NCBI GenBank assembly: GCA_022736605.1
Contig: DZDB01000001.1
Span: forward strand, 1 to 32,061
Length of the DNA stretch: 32,061 bases
Direction: 5' to 3'
Origin: Sideroxydans lithotrophicus
Lineage (GTDB): Bacteria; Pseudomonadota; Gammaproteobacteria; Burkholderiales; Sulfuriferulaceae
Part shown: piece after piece, positions 10,809 to 19,432 of the stretch
Layout of the letters: each line of letters begins with the position of its first letter
How positions within the stretch are numbered: the first letter of the stretch is position 1
Made by a program: the position numbers and the translations under genes
The notes under the pieces: model-generated
What the model was told of the DNA's origin: nothing
Databases searched by the model: none
Seen by the model: the letters and a program-made list of their open reading frames with translations, nothing else

Positions 10809-11189
10809 ATGACCGACAGCACATTGAAATTTCTGGTAGTGGACGATTTTTCCAGCATGCGACGCATGTTGCGCAACCTGCTGAAAGAACTCGGCTATCG
10901 CGACAGTGACGAGGCTGAAGACGGCGTTGCCGCACTGGAAAAATTGCATAGCGCACACTATGACGTGGTGTTGACCGACTGGAGCATGCCCAATCTGAGT
11001 GGCATTGAGCTGCTGCGTGAAATCCGCCGCGATCCACTGCTAGCGCATCTACCGGTGCTGATGGTGACTGCCGAGGCGCTGCCGGAAAACCTCGCCGAGG
11101 CGACCGCCGCTGGCGCCAGCGGCTACGTACTCAAACCCTTCACGCTGGACACGCTGGGTACAGCGCTGGCTGCAATACTGCCTGCCTAA
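10809..11189 (+). CDS. CheY-like single-domain response regulator
   Basis: This 126-residue protein is a receiver domain and nothing else. The acidic pocket is in [13 protein letters not shown], the phosphorylated aspartate in [10 protein letters not shown], the conserved threonine in LMVTAEA and the lysine in YVLKPFT. All residues needed for phosphorylation are present. The [16 protein letters not shown] segment resembles true CheY proteins, but no histidine kinase, flagellar or chemotaxis genes are adjacent. Its partner may be encoded elsewhere. A GAGG ribosome site precedes the ATG. It is convergent with sixA, and the two stop codons overlap by four bases (11186-11189). Confidence 0.93.
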
Positions 11190-11662
11190 CTCAGCTCCGG
11201 CGTCATCACCGCACGCACAATAATCTGCTGGCTGGCTTGCCGCACGCGGTTGGTCAGCCACCACAGCCCGCCTTTCTTGATACACAAATCCGCCTCCGCC
11301 CCGCACATCAGCAGCGACGCCGTTTGTCCCAGACTGGGCTGATGCCCGACCACCACCACGGTACCGCCTGCGTCCGGCCAGCCGCTGGCCAGCACCACGC
11401 TCATCGCATCGGTGCCGGGTGCCAGTTTCTGGATGATCTCCATCGGCCGCCCCAGCGCTGCGGCGGTTTGCAGCGCGCGCTTGGCCGGGCTGACCAGGAT
11501 GCGCGCATCCTTCGGCAGACGCGCGTTGAGCCAGTCCGCCATTTGTGCCGCCTGCTTCAAGCCTTTGGCGGTCAGTTCACGCGTCATGTCGGGCACGCCA
11601 TCCACCGCATCGGCATGACGCCACACGATCAAATCCATATCGACATCCAAAAAGTGCGCCAT
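11186..11662 (-). CDS. sixA: SixA-like phosphohistidine phosphatase
   Basis: This is a histidine phosphatase superfamily protein of 158 residues. It has the RHA motif of the SixA branch ([12 protein letters not shown]) and the conserved [10 protein letters not shown] and [10 protein letters not shown] segments with the second catalytic histidine. SixA removes phosphate from phosphohistidine, classically on phosphotransfer proteins. The ATG at 11662 has a strong GGAGG six bases upstream and is preferred over an internal ATG at residue 9. It lies 21 bases downstream of the CYTH-CHAD gene on the same strand, so the two are probably co-transcribed; SixA with CHAD is a recurring pairing. A role in phosphate or polyphosphate signalling is inference. 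Confidence 0.9.
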
Positions 11663-11683: not shown

Positions 11684-13177
11684 TTATGTGCGCTCACGCC
11701 AAAACGGTTTGGCTGCGTTTACGTCATCCCAGGCAATGCCGAATTGCGCCAGCAACTGCGGCACCTGCGCGGCACACCAGCCCTGTACCATACCGCAAGC
11801 CCAGGTGTGGCGTGGGCGCAAGGTTTGCAGGCAACGCTGTGCGACCGCCAGATCATTTAGCTCACCGAGCTGTTGTTGCAAGCCTGACAGCGCTGCCAGA
11901 TACGCCCGGCTTGCGCGCTGCGGATAAATTTCTGCCATAAACGCCAACAGGTAACGTTGTTTTTTGGCCGCGACACGCAGGCGGTGGCGTGCAGCGACTG
12001 ACAGCGTGGTCGCGTCCCCGCCCCGCCGCAGCAACGTACGATGCTGCTTTGCCAGCAGCTCGCGTGCCCTGCGCTTTAAGCTCCCCGCATTGTCTGCATC
12101 CAGACTATCCTGCTCGCAGGATAGCAACGCCCGTCCGACCCGCAGCAAAAACTGGCCAAACCGTGCCGACCCGAGTGCTGCACTCAAGTCTGCATGCGCA
12201 GCGTGGCGCAACGGCTGGATGGCACGCAGCAGGCGTTCAAATGCCAGATCCGCTACTTGCGTCTGAACTGCGGGCAAGGTGTGCGCCATCACCACATCCC
12301 GGTCACGCGCCAGGCTGGTATTGTCCAGCACCCAGCGTAACTCAGCGCGCAACGCGGCCAGTGCCGGGCAGTGCTGATTGATGCGTAGCGCCGCGTCCAT
12401 GCGCCGCAGTGCAATCCGGAATTGGTGCAGATATTCAGGGTCACGCCCATCCAGTAGCCCGACCAGATTGCCGGTCAGCTGCGCCAATGCGCTTTGCGCG
12501 GCACAGATTGCCGCCGCCGTGACCGGCATCTCCGCGCGCAAGCCTGCCGGGGCAGCTTTAACCGGCGCAGCTAGCTGGCCGAGAAACAGCGCATAACCGC
12601 GTTGCGCCTTGCTCACCGGATCAGGACGCAACGGAATGGTTTCAGCCAGCGCCAGCGCGAGGTCGAACAAAGCCAGCGCAGTGCCCGATTTGAGCTCCAA
12701 CTCCAGTTCCAGAATCGGCTGGCTATGTGTGCCACTACGCACCTCGCCCTGATCCAGCGCCACTTCGATCTGTGCACCCTCCCACTGTACCTGCCAGGTA
12801 GTGCGCCAGAAGCGCGTCTCGAATACCGGCAGCAGTTTTGCCTGCCGCGCCGAGGTAAGCAATGCGCGCACTGCAGGCGCTTCAAACAGCGCCGGATTGA
12901 GCGTTGCATCGGGCAGCGTGACTTCCCATTCGGGGCGCTGATGCAGGCCGCCACTTGCACCCCCTCCAATCTTCACCGTCTGGATCCAGCTTTGTCCGAC
13001 CCGACGCACACGCAACGCCGCATTTTTTCGCATTAGACTTAACTTGGGCGTGTCATGGTAAACACTCCGCAGATTGCGTCGTAACGGCGTGCCCGCCGCC
13101 TGCAATAGCGGATGGCGCTTGAGCGCTGCAACGCTCGTGGATGCCAGCGCCAGCTTGAGTTCAACTTCGGTTGTCAT
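11684..13177 (-). CDS. CYTH-CHAD domain protein (inorganic triphosphatase, YgiF-like)
   Basis: This 497-residue protein has an N-terminal CYTH domain (about residues 1-200) and a C-terminal CHAD domain. The CYTH signature ExExK is at the very start (TEVELKLAL), with basic residues in AALRVRRVG and acidic strands in WEVTLP and ILELELELKSG. The CHAD part has the expected histidines and arginines, for example YLHQFRIALRRMDAALR and RHRLRVAAKKQRYLLAF. CYTH proteins hydrolyse triphosphates such as inorganic tripolyphosphate, and CHAD domains bind polyphosphate. I chose the ATG at 13177 because it places the ExExK motif at the N-terminus, although no good ribosome site is visible. It is divergent from ppk1, the polyphosphate-making enzyme, which supports a polyphosphate role. 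Confidence 0.9.
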   Translation of the reverse strand: MTTEVELKLALASTSVAALKRHPLLQAAGTPLRRNLRSVYHDTPKLSLMRKNAALRVRRVGQSWIQTVKIGGGASGGLHQRPEWEVTLPDATLNPALFEAPAVRALLTSARQAKLLPVFETRFWRTTWQVQWEGAQIEVALDQGEVRSGTHSQPILELELELKSGTALALFDLALALAETIPLRPDPVSKAQRGYALFLGQLAAPVKAAPAGLRAEMPVTAAAICAAQSALAQLTGNLVGLLDGRDPEYLHQFRIALRRMDAALRINQHCPALAALRAELRWVLDNTSLARDRDVVMAHTLPAVQTQVADLAFERLLRAIQPLRHAAHADLSAALGSARFGQFLLRVGRALLSCEQDSLDADNAGSLKRRARELLAKQHRTLLRRGGDATTLSVAARHRLRVAAKKQRYLLAFMAEIYPQRASRAYLAALSGLQQQLGELNDLAVAQRCLQTLRPRHTWACGMVQGWCAAQVPQLLAQFGIAWDDVNAAKPFWRERT

Positions 13178-13199
13178 AATATTGTCATGTGATTGCCAT
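13171..13199 (+). promoter_or_regulatory. Pho-box-like array: three half-sites at 11-bp spacing
   Basis: TTGTCAT (13171-13177), TTGTCAT (13182-13188) and TTGCCAT (13193-13199) are separated by 4-base spacers AATA and GTGA. This is the 7-4-7 geometry of the PhoB box, consensus CTGTCAT-N4-CTGTCAY. Half-sites 1 and 2 each match 6 of 7 positions. The first half-site overlaps the CYTH-CHAD start codon. The direct repeats point towards ppk1, about 70 bases away. Confidence 0.65.
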
Positions 13200-13269
13200 A
13201 TAAAGATAGAGTGTGCGACGTATCCGCGCACCTCACAATCATCTTAGCGTTATTTGCTACCATACCCCC

Positions 13270-15339
13270 ATGACAATCGCCACTACCGAGCATTTCCTCA
13301 ACCGCGAACTGAGTTTGCTGGCCTTTAACGAACGCGTGCTGGCGCAAGCCGAAGATCCCGCCATGCCGTTGCTCGAACGGCTCAAATTCATCTGCATCGT
13401 CAGCAGCAACCTGGATGAATTTTTTGAAGTACGCGTCGCCGGACTGAAGGAGCGCATCGCGCTCAGCTCGATCAGCGTTGGTCCTGACGGTCTGAGCGCC
13501 ACGCAGACGTTCCGCGCTGCGGTGCCACGTGTGCATGCACTGGTTGAAAAGCAGTACGCCACATTGAATCAAAGTATCTTGCCGCAACTGGCCGAACAGG
13601 GCATCCGGTTTCTGCGTCGCAATCACTGGAATACCGAACAGACTGAGTGGATCCGCGCGTATTTTTTCCGCGAACTGATGCCGGTGCTGACACCGATCGG
13701 CCTCGACCCTGCGCATCCATTCCCGCGCGTGCTCAACAAGAGCCTGAACTTTGCCGTCGAACTGTCCGGACGCGATGCGTTTGGACGCAATTCCGGCGCA
13801 GCGGTGGTGCAGGCGCCGCGCTCGTTGCCACGCGTGATCCGCATGCCGGAAGCGATTGCCGGGTGCGAATACGGCTTCGTGTTTTTGTCGTCGATCCTGC
13901 ACGCGCACGTCGATGAGCTGTTCTCGGGCATGACGGTGCAGGGTTGTTATCAATTCCGCGTCACACGCAATTCCGACCTGTTCGTTGACGAGGAAGAGAC
14001 CAAAAACCTGCGCGAAGCCTTGCAGGGCGAACTGCCGCATCGCCACTTCGGCAACGCGGTCCGGCTTGAAGTCGCAGATAACTGCTCACCCAAAATGGCC
14101 GAATTTTTGCTGTCACAGTTCAGCCTGGACGCCGATGACCTGTACCAGGTCAACGGCCTGGTCAACCTGGTTCGTCTGATGCAGATTCCTGATCAGGTAG
14201 ATCGCCCCGACCTCAAGTTCGCACCGTTCATGCCCGGTCTGCCAAACGGTCTGGCCAAGGAAGGCGCGATGTTTGCTGCAATCCGCAAAAGCGATATTTT
14301 GCTGCACCACCCGTTCCAGTCATTCCAGCCAGTCATCGACTTCATCCGTGAAGCCGCAGACGATCCGAAAGTGCTGGCAATACGCCAGACCGTGTACCGC
14401 ACCGGCACCGATTCCATGCTGATGGAAGCGCTGATCGCTGCCGCACAGAGCGGCAAGGAAGTCACCGTCGTGGTCGAGTTGATGGCGCGTTTCGACGAAG
14501 AGGCCAATATCAACTGGGCCGCCAAACTGGAAGATGCCGGCGCCCACGTGGTGTACGGCGTGGTTGCGCACAAGACCCACGCAAAAATGGCGCTGGTGGT
14601 ACGCCGCGAAGATGGCAAACTGCGTCGTTATGCCCATCTCGGCACCGGCAATTACCACGCCAGGACGGCACGCCTGTACACCGATTTTGGCCTGTTGACA
14701 TGCAACGATGATGTATGCGCAGACGTCAACGACATCTTTACCCAGTTGACCGGGCTGGGCAAAGCTTCACGCCTCAAACACCTGTGGCAATCACCGTTTA
14801 CCCTGCACAGCCAGGTGCTGGCCGCCATCAAGCGCGAAACCACGCTGGCGCAGTCAGGTCAACCTGCTGCGATTATTGCCAAAATGAATTCCCTGGTCGA
14901 ACCTGATGTGGTCAATGCCCTGTACGAAGCCTCGCAGGCGGGCGTAAAAATCAGCCTGATTATCCGGGGTGTGTGCGTGCTCAAACCCGGCATTGCCGGG
15001 CTGTCGGAAAATATCCGCGTGCGCTCGGTGATTGGCCGCTTCCTGGAACACACGCGCATTTTCTACTTCCGCGATGGCGGCGCCGAACGCGTCTATTTAT
15101 CGAGTGCAGACTGGATGGATCGCAACTTTTTCCGCCGCATTGAAGCGTGTTTCCCGGTGCTGGAGCCACGCCTGAAAAAACGCGTGATTACCGAAGGACT
15201 GAAACCTTACCTGAAGGACAATACCCAGGCCTGGGACATGGACATGCACGGCGACTATCGGCGCAAACAGCCGCGTCGCGCCAAGCCTTACAACGCCCAG
15301 GCCATGCTCTTGGAAACACTGGCAAAAAGCGCCGGGTAA
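13270..15339 (+). CDS. ppk1: Polyphosphate kinase 1
   Basis: PPK1 reversibly polymerises the gamma-phosphate of ATP into inorganic polyphosphate at the inner membrane. The 689-residue protein has all domains: N-terminal FLNRELSLLAFNERVL and SNLDEFFEVRV, and the two phospholipase-D-like catalytic domains. By alignment with E. coli, His437 in KTHAKMALV is the autophosphorylated residue and His456 in YAHLGTGNYH the second essential histidine, with the same 19-residue spacing. RNFFRRIEACFPV is near the C-terminus. A leucine replaces the usual tryptophan in the NRELSWL motif. The ATG at 13270 gives the standard N-terminus although it lacks a clear ribosome site; the frame opens upstream at 13213. 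It is divergent from CYTH-CHAD and convergent with the first CZB gene. Confidence 0.97.
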   Translation: MTIATTEHFLNRELSLLAFNERVLAQAEDPAMPLLERLKFICIVSSNLDEFFEVRVAGLKERIALSSISVGPDGLSATQTFRAAVPRVHALVEKQYATLNQSILPQLAEQGIRFLRRNHWNTEQTEWIRAYFFRELMPVLTPIGLDPAHPFPRVLNKSLNFAVELSGRDAFGRNSGAAVVQAPRSLPRVIRMPEAIAGCEYGFVFLSSILHAHVDELFSGMTVQGCYQFRVTRNSDLFVDEEETKNLREALQGELPHRHFGNAVRLEVADNCSPKMAEFLLSQFSLDADDLYQVNGLVNLVRLMQIPDQVDRPDLKFAPFMPGLPNGLAKEGAMFAAIRKSDILLHHPFQSFQPVIDFIREAADDPKVLAIRQTVYRTGTDSMLMEALIAAAQSGKEVTVVVELMARFDEEANINWAAKLEDAGAHVVYGVVAHKTHAKMALVVRREDGKLRRYAHLGTGNYHARTARLYTDFGLLTCNDDVCADVNDIFTQLTGLGKASRLKHLWQSPFTLHSQVLAAIKRETTLAQSGQPAAIIAKMNSLVEPDVVNALYEASQAGVKISLIIRGVCVLKPGIAGLSENIRVRSVIGRFLEHTRIFYFRDGGAERVYLSSADWMDRNFFRRIEACFPVLEPRLKKRVITEGLKPYLKDNTQAWDMDMHGDYRRKQPRRAKPYNAQAMLLETLAKSAG

Positions 15340-15359: not shown

Positions 15360-15896
15360 TCAGACGGTTTTTGGGTACTGGCGAAACGATACGATGGACT
15401 GATGCACCGGCATCGCCACACCTTGCGCGCTCAACATGGCGTCAAGTTTGGCGTCGTCCATCTCGATCAGTTGCTGTTGCAGGTCGTCCAGATGGCCCGC
15501 GATATCGCGCGAAATCTGCTTCAGTTCGGCAAACAGTTGGTGTGCCTGCGCTTGCGCTGCCGCTTTTTCTTCAGCCAGCTTTTTAGCAGAACCCAGCATG
15601 CGCCCGAACAGGCCGGACGTGTCTTCCTTATCGGCCACGCGCAACAACTTGTGGATTTCCATGTAAACGTCGTGCAGCTTGAGGTGCGGGTCTTCCACCT
15701 TGCGGAACGCCGCCAGTTGCGACAGGATTTGACCCTCACCGTAATACCAGCAGCCAAAGCCGCACTCGGTGCCGTGCACCGGCACTTTGTCTTTGGCAAC
15801 CTCCATGCCTTCTACCAGCGCATGAGCGTGCGTGACCCAGCTCATGTGAGCTTTTTTGCTATCGCGTAAACGGTAAATCACTTCGGCTTTGTTCAT
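15360..15896 (-). CDS. Free-standing CZB (zinc-binding) domain protein, copy 1
   Basis: This 178-residue soluble protein is a CZB domain followed by a helical, Ala/Glu/Gln-rich segment (about residues 95-150) that looks like a coiled coil. The zinc ligands of the family are visible: His17 in AHMSWVTH, Cys45 in ECGFGCWYYG, and His71 and His75 in PHLKLHDVYMEIH. CZB domains sense zinc or oxidants and normally control attached chemoreceptors or diguanylate cyclases; here there is no output domain. Cys49, four residues after the ligand cysteine, is an extra thiol. The ATG at 15896 has AGGAGA upstream; the frame continues 19 codons further without support. It is paralogous to the gene at 16058-16585. 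Confidence 0.88.
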   Translation of the reverse strand: MNKAEVIYRLRDSKKAHMSWVTHAHALVEGMEVAKDKVPVHGTECGFGCWYYGEGQILSQLAAFRKVEDPHLKLHDVYMEIHKLLRVADKEDTSGLFGRMLGSAKKLAEEKAAAQAQAHQLFAELKQISRDIAGHLDDLQQQLIEMDDAKLDAMLSAQGVAMPVHQSIVSFRQYPKTV

Positions 15897-15970
15897 GTTT
15901 TCTCTCCTGAGTATTGTATTTCTGTCGGTTAGACGTAATACGTGGAGAGGCAAAAACAGACTGTGAACAA

Positions 15971-16057: not shown

Positions 16058-16585
16058 TCAAGCGACTATTTGTTTCACCAGACTCAGTTTAGGCGGCGCA
16101 TTGCCGAATCCCTGTGCCGCCATCAGCGCATCGAACTCAGCGTCGCTCATGGCCAGCAGCACGGCCTGTAAATCGTCAACATGCGCGACAATTTCACGTG
16201 ACGCAGCTTTCATGTCCTGCAACAGGGCATGTGCCTTGGCATCAGCCGCCTGTTTTTCGGCTTTGAGTTTGCGTCCCGCACCCAGCAGGCAGCCGAGCCG
16301 CGAGTTGTCCTGTTCCTTCTGTCCGACTTTGAGCAACACATGAATATGCAGGTAGATAGCGTGCAGGCGCTGGTGTGGCTCGTCTATCCGTTGAAATGCA
16401 GAAATCTGCGACAGCACGCTGCCATTGCCGTAATACCAGCAGCCAAACGCGCATTCGGTGCAATGCAGCGGCACTTCGTCCTGCTCAACCGGGCGCCCTT
16501 CAATAATTGCACTGGCGTGCGACACCCACCAGAGATGGGATTTTTTGGCATCGTGCAGGAAAGTAATGGCGTGGGCTTTTTTCAT
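16058..16585 (-). CDS. Free-standing CZB (zinc-binding) domain protein, copy 2
   Basis: This 175-residue paralogue aligns without gaps with copy 1 through at least residue 85: His17, Cys45, Cys49, His71 and His75 fall at identical positions, which supports both chosen starts. The motif reads CTECAFGCWYYG, so it carries a further cysteine at 42, giving a C-x2-C-x3-C cluster. A helical C-terminal part with KAEKQAADAKAHALLQDMK follows. Start choice: the ATG at 16585 fits the paralogue; a GTG at 16609 would add eight residues. There are 161 bases between it and copy 1 downstream, enough for separate promoters. No effector domain is present, so it may act as a zinc- or thiol-responsive partner of another protein; that is inference. 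Confidence 0.87.
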   Translation of the reverse strand: MKKAHAITFLHDAKKSHLWWVSHASAIIEGRPVEQDEVPLHCTECAFGCWYYGNGSVLSQISAFQRIDEPHQRLHAIYLHIHVLLKVGQKEQDNSRLGCLLGAGRKLKAEKQAADAKAHALLQDMKAASREIVAHVDDLQAVLLAMSDAEFDALMAAQGFGNAPPKLSLVKQIVA

Positions 16586-16666
16586 GTCAACTCGCAGGAA
16601 ACATTTCACGCTGACAACCTACCAGATGCAAGCAGTACAAAACATCCATCAATCGAATGAATTTTC

Positions 16667-18202: not shown

Positions 18203-19432
18203 TTAACCAAAAAAGAAATACGTCACGCCAATCGCGGCAATCAGCCCACCCAGATCGGCCAGCAGGCCACACGCCACCGCATGGCGTACACGCTTGATAC
18301 CAACCGCGCCAAAATACACCGCGAGCACGTAAAAAGTGGTTTCGGTGCTGCCCTGGATCACCGACGCCAGCCGCCCGGCAAACGAGTCTGCGCCAAAAGT
18401 ATGCATGGTATCGATCATCATCGCGCGCGCACCGCTACCGGACAACGGCTTCATCAGCGCGGTCGGCAGCGCATCCACCCAGCGCGTGTCCCAGCCCATG
18501 CCCAGCACCGCGCTGCGCACCGCGTTCATCAGCAAATCCAGCGCGCCACTGGCACGGAACACGGCGATGGCCACCAGCATCGCAACAAGATACGGGATGA
18601 TCGTGACAGCGGTATGAAAACCGTCCTTGGCGCCTTCGATAAAGGCTTCATACGCATTGACGCGCTTGATCGCAGCACCGCCGATAAATAGCGTGACCAG
18701 ACCAAATAGCAGCGCGTTGCTCAATATCGACGACTGACGCAGCATCTCCGCCGCAGGCAGCTGCGCAAAATACGCGACCAGGCCGAACACGACCGCGCTG
18801 ATCGCGGCCAGGTACGCCAGCACGACTTTATCGAGCAGGTTGATCTTCTGGAAAAACGCCGTCGCCAGCAGCCCCGCCATGGTCGAGCAGTACGTTGCGA
18901 TCAGGATCGGGATAAACACGTCGGTGGGGTCTACCGCACCGGCCTGGGCGCGGTAGGTAAAAATCGTCACTGGCAGCAGCGTCACCGACGACGCATTAAT
19001 CACCAGAAACAGGATTTGCGCGTCGGATGCGGTGTCTTTTTTCGGATTGATGGTTTGCAATTCCTGCATCGCCTTGATGCCGATCGGTGTCGCGGCGTTG
19101 TCCAGGCCAAGCATGTTGGCGGCCATGTTCATGGTAATCGCGCCAAGCGCCGGGTGGTTGGACGGCACATCGGGAAACAGACGCTTGAACAGCGGGTTCA
19201 ACAGCCAGGTCAAACCCTGTAAAAACCCGGCACGCTCGCCGATGCGCATGATGCCGAGCCACAGCGCCATCACGCCGGTTAATCCAATGGCGATTTCAAA
19301 CGCGCTTTTTGATGCTTCAAACGTGGCCTTCATGATCAGCGCGAAGCTGTCGGTGTGGCCAAGGAATACTGCGTTGACGACGGCAAAACCGAACGCCACC
19401 AGAAAGAACCCGACCCAGATGGCGTTTAACAT
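18203..19432 (-). CDS. SpmA/SpmB-type fusion membrane protein (nucleoside-recognition Gate domains)
   Basis: This 409-residue inner-membrane protein has two repeats of the Gate/nucleoside-recognition domain. The first half corresponds to SpmA (ALWLGIMRIGERAG, NPLFKRLFPDVPSNHPALGAI, NMLGLDNAATPIG), the second to SpmB (GAKDGFHTAVTIIPYLVAML, MKPLSGSGARAMMIDT, GSTETTFYVLAVYFG). About eight to ten membrane segments are visible. In Bacillus the two halves are separate spore-maturation genes; in non-sporulating proteobacteria the fusion is common and its transported molecule is unknown. The ATG at 19432 overlaps the upstream stop codon by one base (TGATG), implying coupled translation with the CobD-like gene. 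The frame is open 22 codons further, inside that gene. Confidence 0.9.
   Translation of the reverse strand: MLNAIWVGFFLVAFGFAVVNAVFLGHTDSFALIMKATFEASKSAFEIAIGLTGVMALWLGIMRIGERAGFLQGLTWLLNPLFKRLFPDVPSNHPALGAITMNMAANMLGLDNAATPIGIKAMQELQTINPKKDTASDAQILFLVINASSVTLLPVTIFTYRAQAGAVDPTDVFIPILIATYCSTMAGLLATAFFQKINLLDKVVLAYLAAISAVVFGLVAYFAQLPAAEMLRQSSILSNALLFGLVTLFIGGAAIKRVNAYEAFIEGAKDGFHTAVTIIPYLVAMLVAIAVFRASGALDLLMNAVRSAVLGMGWDTRWVDALPTALMKPLSGSGARAMMIDTMHTFGADSFAGRLASVIQGSTETTFYVLAVYFGAVGIKRVRHAVACGLLADLGGLIAAIGVTYFFFG

Follow-up and report, generated by a model that had tools for sequence, protein, structure and literature searches.

Does a row of Pho half-sites lying between the polyphosphate kinase gene ppk1 and a divergent CYTH-CHAD gene serve one of the two genes, or both? 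PhoB is a bacterial regulator for phosphate shortage. Its Pho box consists of direct 7-bp repeats of the consensus [CT]TGTCA[TC] with 4-bp spacers, and in a PhoB-activated promoter the box stands in for the -35 element, with the -10 hexamer following about 10 bp past the second repeat. In the window (the whole stretch of DNA analysed, 32,061 nucleotides), three such half-sites with a period of exactly 11 bp had been proposed at positions 13171-13199, and they were found precisely there (TTGTCAT-AATA-TTGTCAT-GTGA-TTGCCAT), as direct 7-bp repeats with 4-bp spacers that fit the Pho box consensus. The features that matter for the argument are the following:

11186-11662, minus strand: SixA-like histidine phosphatase gene (PF00300; TIGR00249 score under the cut-off)
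11684-13177, minus strand: gene for a CYTH-CHAD protein of 497 aa (PF01928 and PF05235), starting within half-site 1
13171-13177, plus strand: Pho half-site 1, TTGTCAT; its complement, ATGACAA, holds the CYTH-CHAD start codon and the Thr codon ACA
13182-13188, plus strand: Pho half-site 2, TTGTCAT, which with half-site 1 forms the 18-bp core Pho box
13193-13199, plus strand: Pho half-site 3, TTGCCAT, within the stretch that separates the Pho box from the -10 element; present also at phoB promoters of the genus
13199-13204, plus strand: predicted ppk1 -10 element, TATAAA, separated from half-site 2 by exactly 10 bp
13241-13246, minus strand: candidate CYTH-CHAD -10 element, TAAGAT; most relatives have a similar hexamer in the corresponding position
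13270-15339, plus strand: ppk1, polyphosphate kinase 1, 689 aa (Pfam PP_kinase domains; TIGR03705, 983.8 bits)

The ppk1 start at 13270 lies 71 bp beyond the array; in PPK1 searches the window groups with Sulfuriferula, the S. multivorans protein being 87% identical. On the other side, the CYTH-CHAD protein is a putative tri/polyphosphatase with a polyP-binding domain. Its gene opens with ATG ACA ACC GAA GTT GAA, and the start codon corresponds to 13175-13177 read on the opposite strand, which confirms the proposed coincidence of half-site 1 with the start of this gene. An extended GTG start at 13231 was set aside because the extension is missing in most relatives and similarity begins at the ATG. 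The SixA-like gene follows on the same strand, 21 bp downstream, and is possibly co-transcribed with CYTH-CHAD. Between ppk1 and ppx the window also encodes two paralogous stand-alone CZB (chemoreceptor zinc-binding) proteins (15360-15953 and 16058-16609, minus strand).

The arrangement reads as a promoter toward ppk1: TTGTCAT-AATA-TTGTCAT in the place of the -35 element, then GTGATTGCCA (10 bp), then TATAAA. Judged by the layout, half-sites 1 and 2 make up the working Pho box and half-site 3 falls in the spacer to the -10 element, so that the three half-sites would not be equivalent. Half-sites 2 and 3 were tried as the working box and rejected, a GTGTGC-like sequence and no -10 element being found 10 bp further on. 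The E. coli phoB promoter, which is activated by PhoB with sigma70 and served as our yardstick (TTTTCAT-AAAT-CTGTCAT-AAATCTGACG-CATAAT), has the same spacing: an 11-bp step between its two half-sites, a 10-bp gap before the -10 element and a weaker third repeat in the spacer (CTGACGC), which runs into the -10 element as at ppk1 in the window. It differs in that no divergent start codon lies in its half-site 1 and in that the window array is nearer the consensus.

This grammar, in which a pair of half-sites at 11-bp spacing is followed after exactly 10 bp by a -10 hexamer, is common to ppk1, phoB and pstS in the genus, the spacing of half-sites 1 and 2 at ppk1 recurring in the phoB and pstS promoters. 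The Pho box followed after 10 bp by a -10-like hexamer stands at phoB in 15 of the 18 genus genomes and at 15 of 17 pstS1 genes. With at most one mismatch allowed, the combined pattern of box and -10 element gave 56 sites in the 18 genomes against 3 for a reversed-pattern control, both figures being sums over a per-genome table. The ppk1 and phoB promoters have in common the third half-site in the spacer, which is missing from most pstS1 promoters.

Could such an array have arisen by chance, or be kept solely because it encodes the CYTH-CHAD N terminus? One of the three half-sites is indeed coding, and the original prediction allowed that this one might be a coincidence. The counts did not bear that out. 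The triple half-site pattern with up to three mismatches matched once in the window, where shuffles lead one to expect 0.00, and twice in the whole draft genome (1.7 Mb in 130 contigs, 75% complete), where the reversed-pattern control matched nowhere. Of these two matches, the only ones in the genome, one stands upstream of ppk1 and the other immediately upstream of phoB; the partners of the array in the genome are phoB and, for the two-half-site form, phoU. Half-sites 2 and 3 and the -10 element are non-coding, yet conserved in relatives. Chance or coding constraint as the whole explanation is accordingly the least credible of the readings considered, and we regard it as extremely unlikely.

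The host genome, that of a Sulfuriferula-like betaproteobacterium, encodes the regulator that such a site calls for. The phoB product reached 356.7 bits against an equivalog cut-off of 296.2 (TIGR02154), and its DNA-binding domain is very close to that of E. coli PhoB, including the TVDVHIRRLR segment. A PhoR-like kinase gene follows phoB; it is cut by the end of the locus, and its score falls below the cut-off because of that truncation. Pho elements also stand at core Pho genes other than phoB. A two-half-site match lies upstream of phoU (TIGR02135, 238.7 bits), and another, complete with the 10-bp spacer and a -10 element, lies at the edge of contig C84 and is near-identical to the pstS1 promoter of a relative (G006). 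The C84 site is probably a pstS promoter, with pstS1 itself expected past the contig end; upstream of the sole pstS gene visible in the draft genome, a second paralogue, no Pho site was found. At two mismatches the genome contains 100 two-half-site matches against 62 in the control, and the others are mostly at chance level. Within the window (18587-18620, minus strand), a two-half-site Pho-like match falls in the coding region for a nucleoside-recognition (Gate) protein; two relatives (G002 and G006) have a close match as well, which probably stems from coding constraint.

Four other full-length OmpR-type regulators score in the host genome, so the array might in principle be bound by another member of that family. 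Against this, the same array is found directly upstream of phoB in 15 genomes of the genus and matches the E. coli phoB promoter, which makes recognition by a regulator other than PhoB very improbable.

Conservation of the array was one of the checks that had been proposed, and it came out positive in one part of the genus and negative in another. A CYTH gene is divergent from ppk1 in 12 of the 18 genus genomes, and in nine of these (G000-G004, G006, G007, G016 and G017) a half-site lies over its start codon. Seven of the nine have half-sites 1 and 2 in exact register, with a -10 element (TATAAA or TATCAT) 10 bp past the second, and two (G003 and G016) have small disturbances of the register. 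No array was found at ppk1 in the other three (G005, G012 and G015), and none that was clear in the six genomes that lack a divergent CYTH gene. PhoB control of ppk1 is therefore not universal in the genus. Beyond the 18-genome set, two metagenome-assembled genomes (L012 and L013, 84% PPK1) keep both the array and the start-codon overlap; at several other loci (L054, L066, L073 and others) arrays precede ppk1 in the absence of CYTH. The layout of the window is also found in S. multivorans (L011). The divergent partner is a CYTH-CHAD gene in the window and in G001, G003 and G006 and a CYTH-only gene (about 210 aa) in most others. Several of the CYTH-only members carry a CHAD-like gene elsewhere (L220-L242).

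Taken as a whole, the presence of PhoB, the arrays at phoB and phoU, the 10-bp offset toward ppk1 and the conserved array give strong support to the predicted control of ppk1 by phosphate through PhoB. Positions 13171-13204 very probably constitute a PhoB-dependent ppk1 promoter, at which phosphorylated PhoB would activate ppk1 under phosphate starvation; both the binding of PhoB and the induction of ppk1 are what we infer from sequence comparison. When phosphate is scarce, PhoR would phosphorylate PhoB, and phosphorylated PhoB would bind in head-to-tail orientation to half-sites 1 and 2, which take the place of a -35 element. It would then recruit sigma70 RNA polymerase to the TATAAA 10 bp downstream, leading to transcription of ppk1 from a start predicted near 13211. 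Half-site 3, which is kept at phoB promoters too, is probably a third PhoB contact.

We then asked what the array may do to the gene on its other side. The simplest symmetrical view is that phosphorylated PhoB co-activates both divergent genes, which both act on polyphosphate and have one intergenic region in common. The half-sites, though, read toward ppk1, and the rule of 10 bp to the -10 element is satisfied in that direction only; moreover, with the CYTH-CHAD start codon inside the array, there is no room between them for a PhoB-activated promoter of this geometry. Co-activation is thus unlikely. An array oriented for ppk1 and not for CYTH-CHAD makes interference the likelier effect.

The case for interference rests on where the CYTH-CHAD transcript would begin. 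The candidate -10 element of this gene has counterparts in relatives (TAAAAT, TAGAAT and TAATAT), and the predicted promoter has a weak -35 element. If this promoter is real, transcription would start near 13234 and pass through both the ppk1 promoter and the Pho array, so that the Pho site overlaps the predicted leader as well as the start codon. With half-site 1 forming the start of the gene and the predicted promoter lying beyond the array, bound PhoB and polymerase would occupy that leader and obstruct the transcript. Starvation would then probably lower CYTH-CHAD, and with it perhaps the downstream SixA-like gene, while ppk1 rises. A lowering of CYTH-CHAD by phosphate starvation is plausible, although we would put it at somewhat less than an even chance. 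Slightly more tentative still is the full two-way polyphosphate switch, in which one bound PhoB array raises ppk1 and lowers the divergent CYTH or CYTH-CHAD phosphatase gene.

The first codons of the CYTH genes bear on this point from two directions. A half-site is built into them in most genus members with this gene pair, and every genome read that has the array uses ACA as codon 2. ACA is a minor codon in the ten window genes (16 of 162 Thr codons), whereas array-less CYTH genes of the genus have ACC or another residue at codon 2. This difference suggests selection for the DNA site, which is not proof of an effect on CYTH. On the other hand, PhoB control of ppk1 may be real and the overlap with the CYTH start be without regulatory effect, a product of compact spacing and a Met-Thr start. 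The array-less CYTH genes of G012 and G015 likewise begin with Met-Thr, so the start codon provides part of half-site 1 free (ATGAC gives GTCAT); it is the ACA accompanying the array in all the array-bearing genomes read that speaks for selection on the site. An overlap without consequence for CYTH comes close to an even chance in our estimate. Translation signals did not help to decide. In the three array-less CYTH genes the leaders are Shine-Dalgarno-like (duplex energies -3.8 to -6.6), and the array-bearing ones mostly have nothing of the kind, but ppk1 leaders mostly have none either, and a leaderless start of CYTH-CHAD is therefore neither supported nor dismissed.

Opposite regulation of the two genes would be sensible on biochemical grounds, given that CHAD domains bind polyP and that CYTH-CHAD enzymes of the YgiF type cleave short polyP or tripolyphosphate (PMC6537752, PMC3440374). 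The window partner has the domain make-up of E. coli YgiF, and the CYTH-only partner of many relatives resembles NeuTTM of Nitrosomonas europaea (PMC3440374, PMC6537752). Unlike the window gene, E. coli ygiF is not placed at ppk; it is described as sharing a constitutive transcript with the gene for glutamine synthetase adenylyl transferase (PMC3440374). Most bacteria induce Ppk on starvation for phosphate storage (review PMC4415409), and the ppk1 of the window resembles the PhoB- or PhoP-regulated ppk genes described there (section 4) in its predicted membership of a starvation-induced Pho regulon; it differs in having a box that also contains the beginning of a divergent CYTH-CHAD gene. That ppk can be under Pho control is established knowledge, and the unusual feature here is that a start codon lies within a half-site for the regulator. 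None of the papers searched dealt with the Pho regulon of this genus, and among openly licensed papers no report of PhoB sites over divergent start codons was found. The array would link the making of polyphosphate to the sensing of phosphate in a genus whose members oxidise sulfur and iron, and the locus would be a clean system for asking whether a regulator site in a start codon can let one binding event oppose synthesis and breakdown.

Pho-like arrays were also seen before genes of other kinds. Degenerate versions (for example TTGTCTTCAATTTGTAACGCATTTTTCAT) occur at L139, L183-L185 and L187 (G012, G009, G013, G010 and G014), ahead of a pair of genes for a GNAT acyltransferase and a PlsC-type acyltransferase (Pfam) that resembles the ornithine-lipid genes olsB-olsA, suggesting Pho-controlled lipid replacement. 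At L120 and L121 (G010 and G011), strong three-half-site arrays at about 1501-1529 lie upstream of a MotA/TolQ/ExbB-family gene with a histidine kinase gene adjacent, a possible Pho-controlled TonB energising system.
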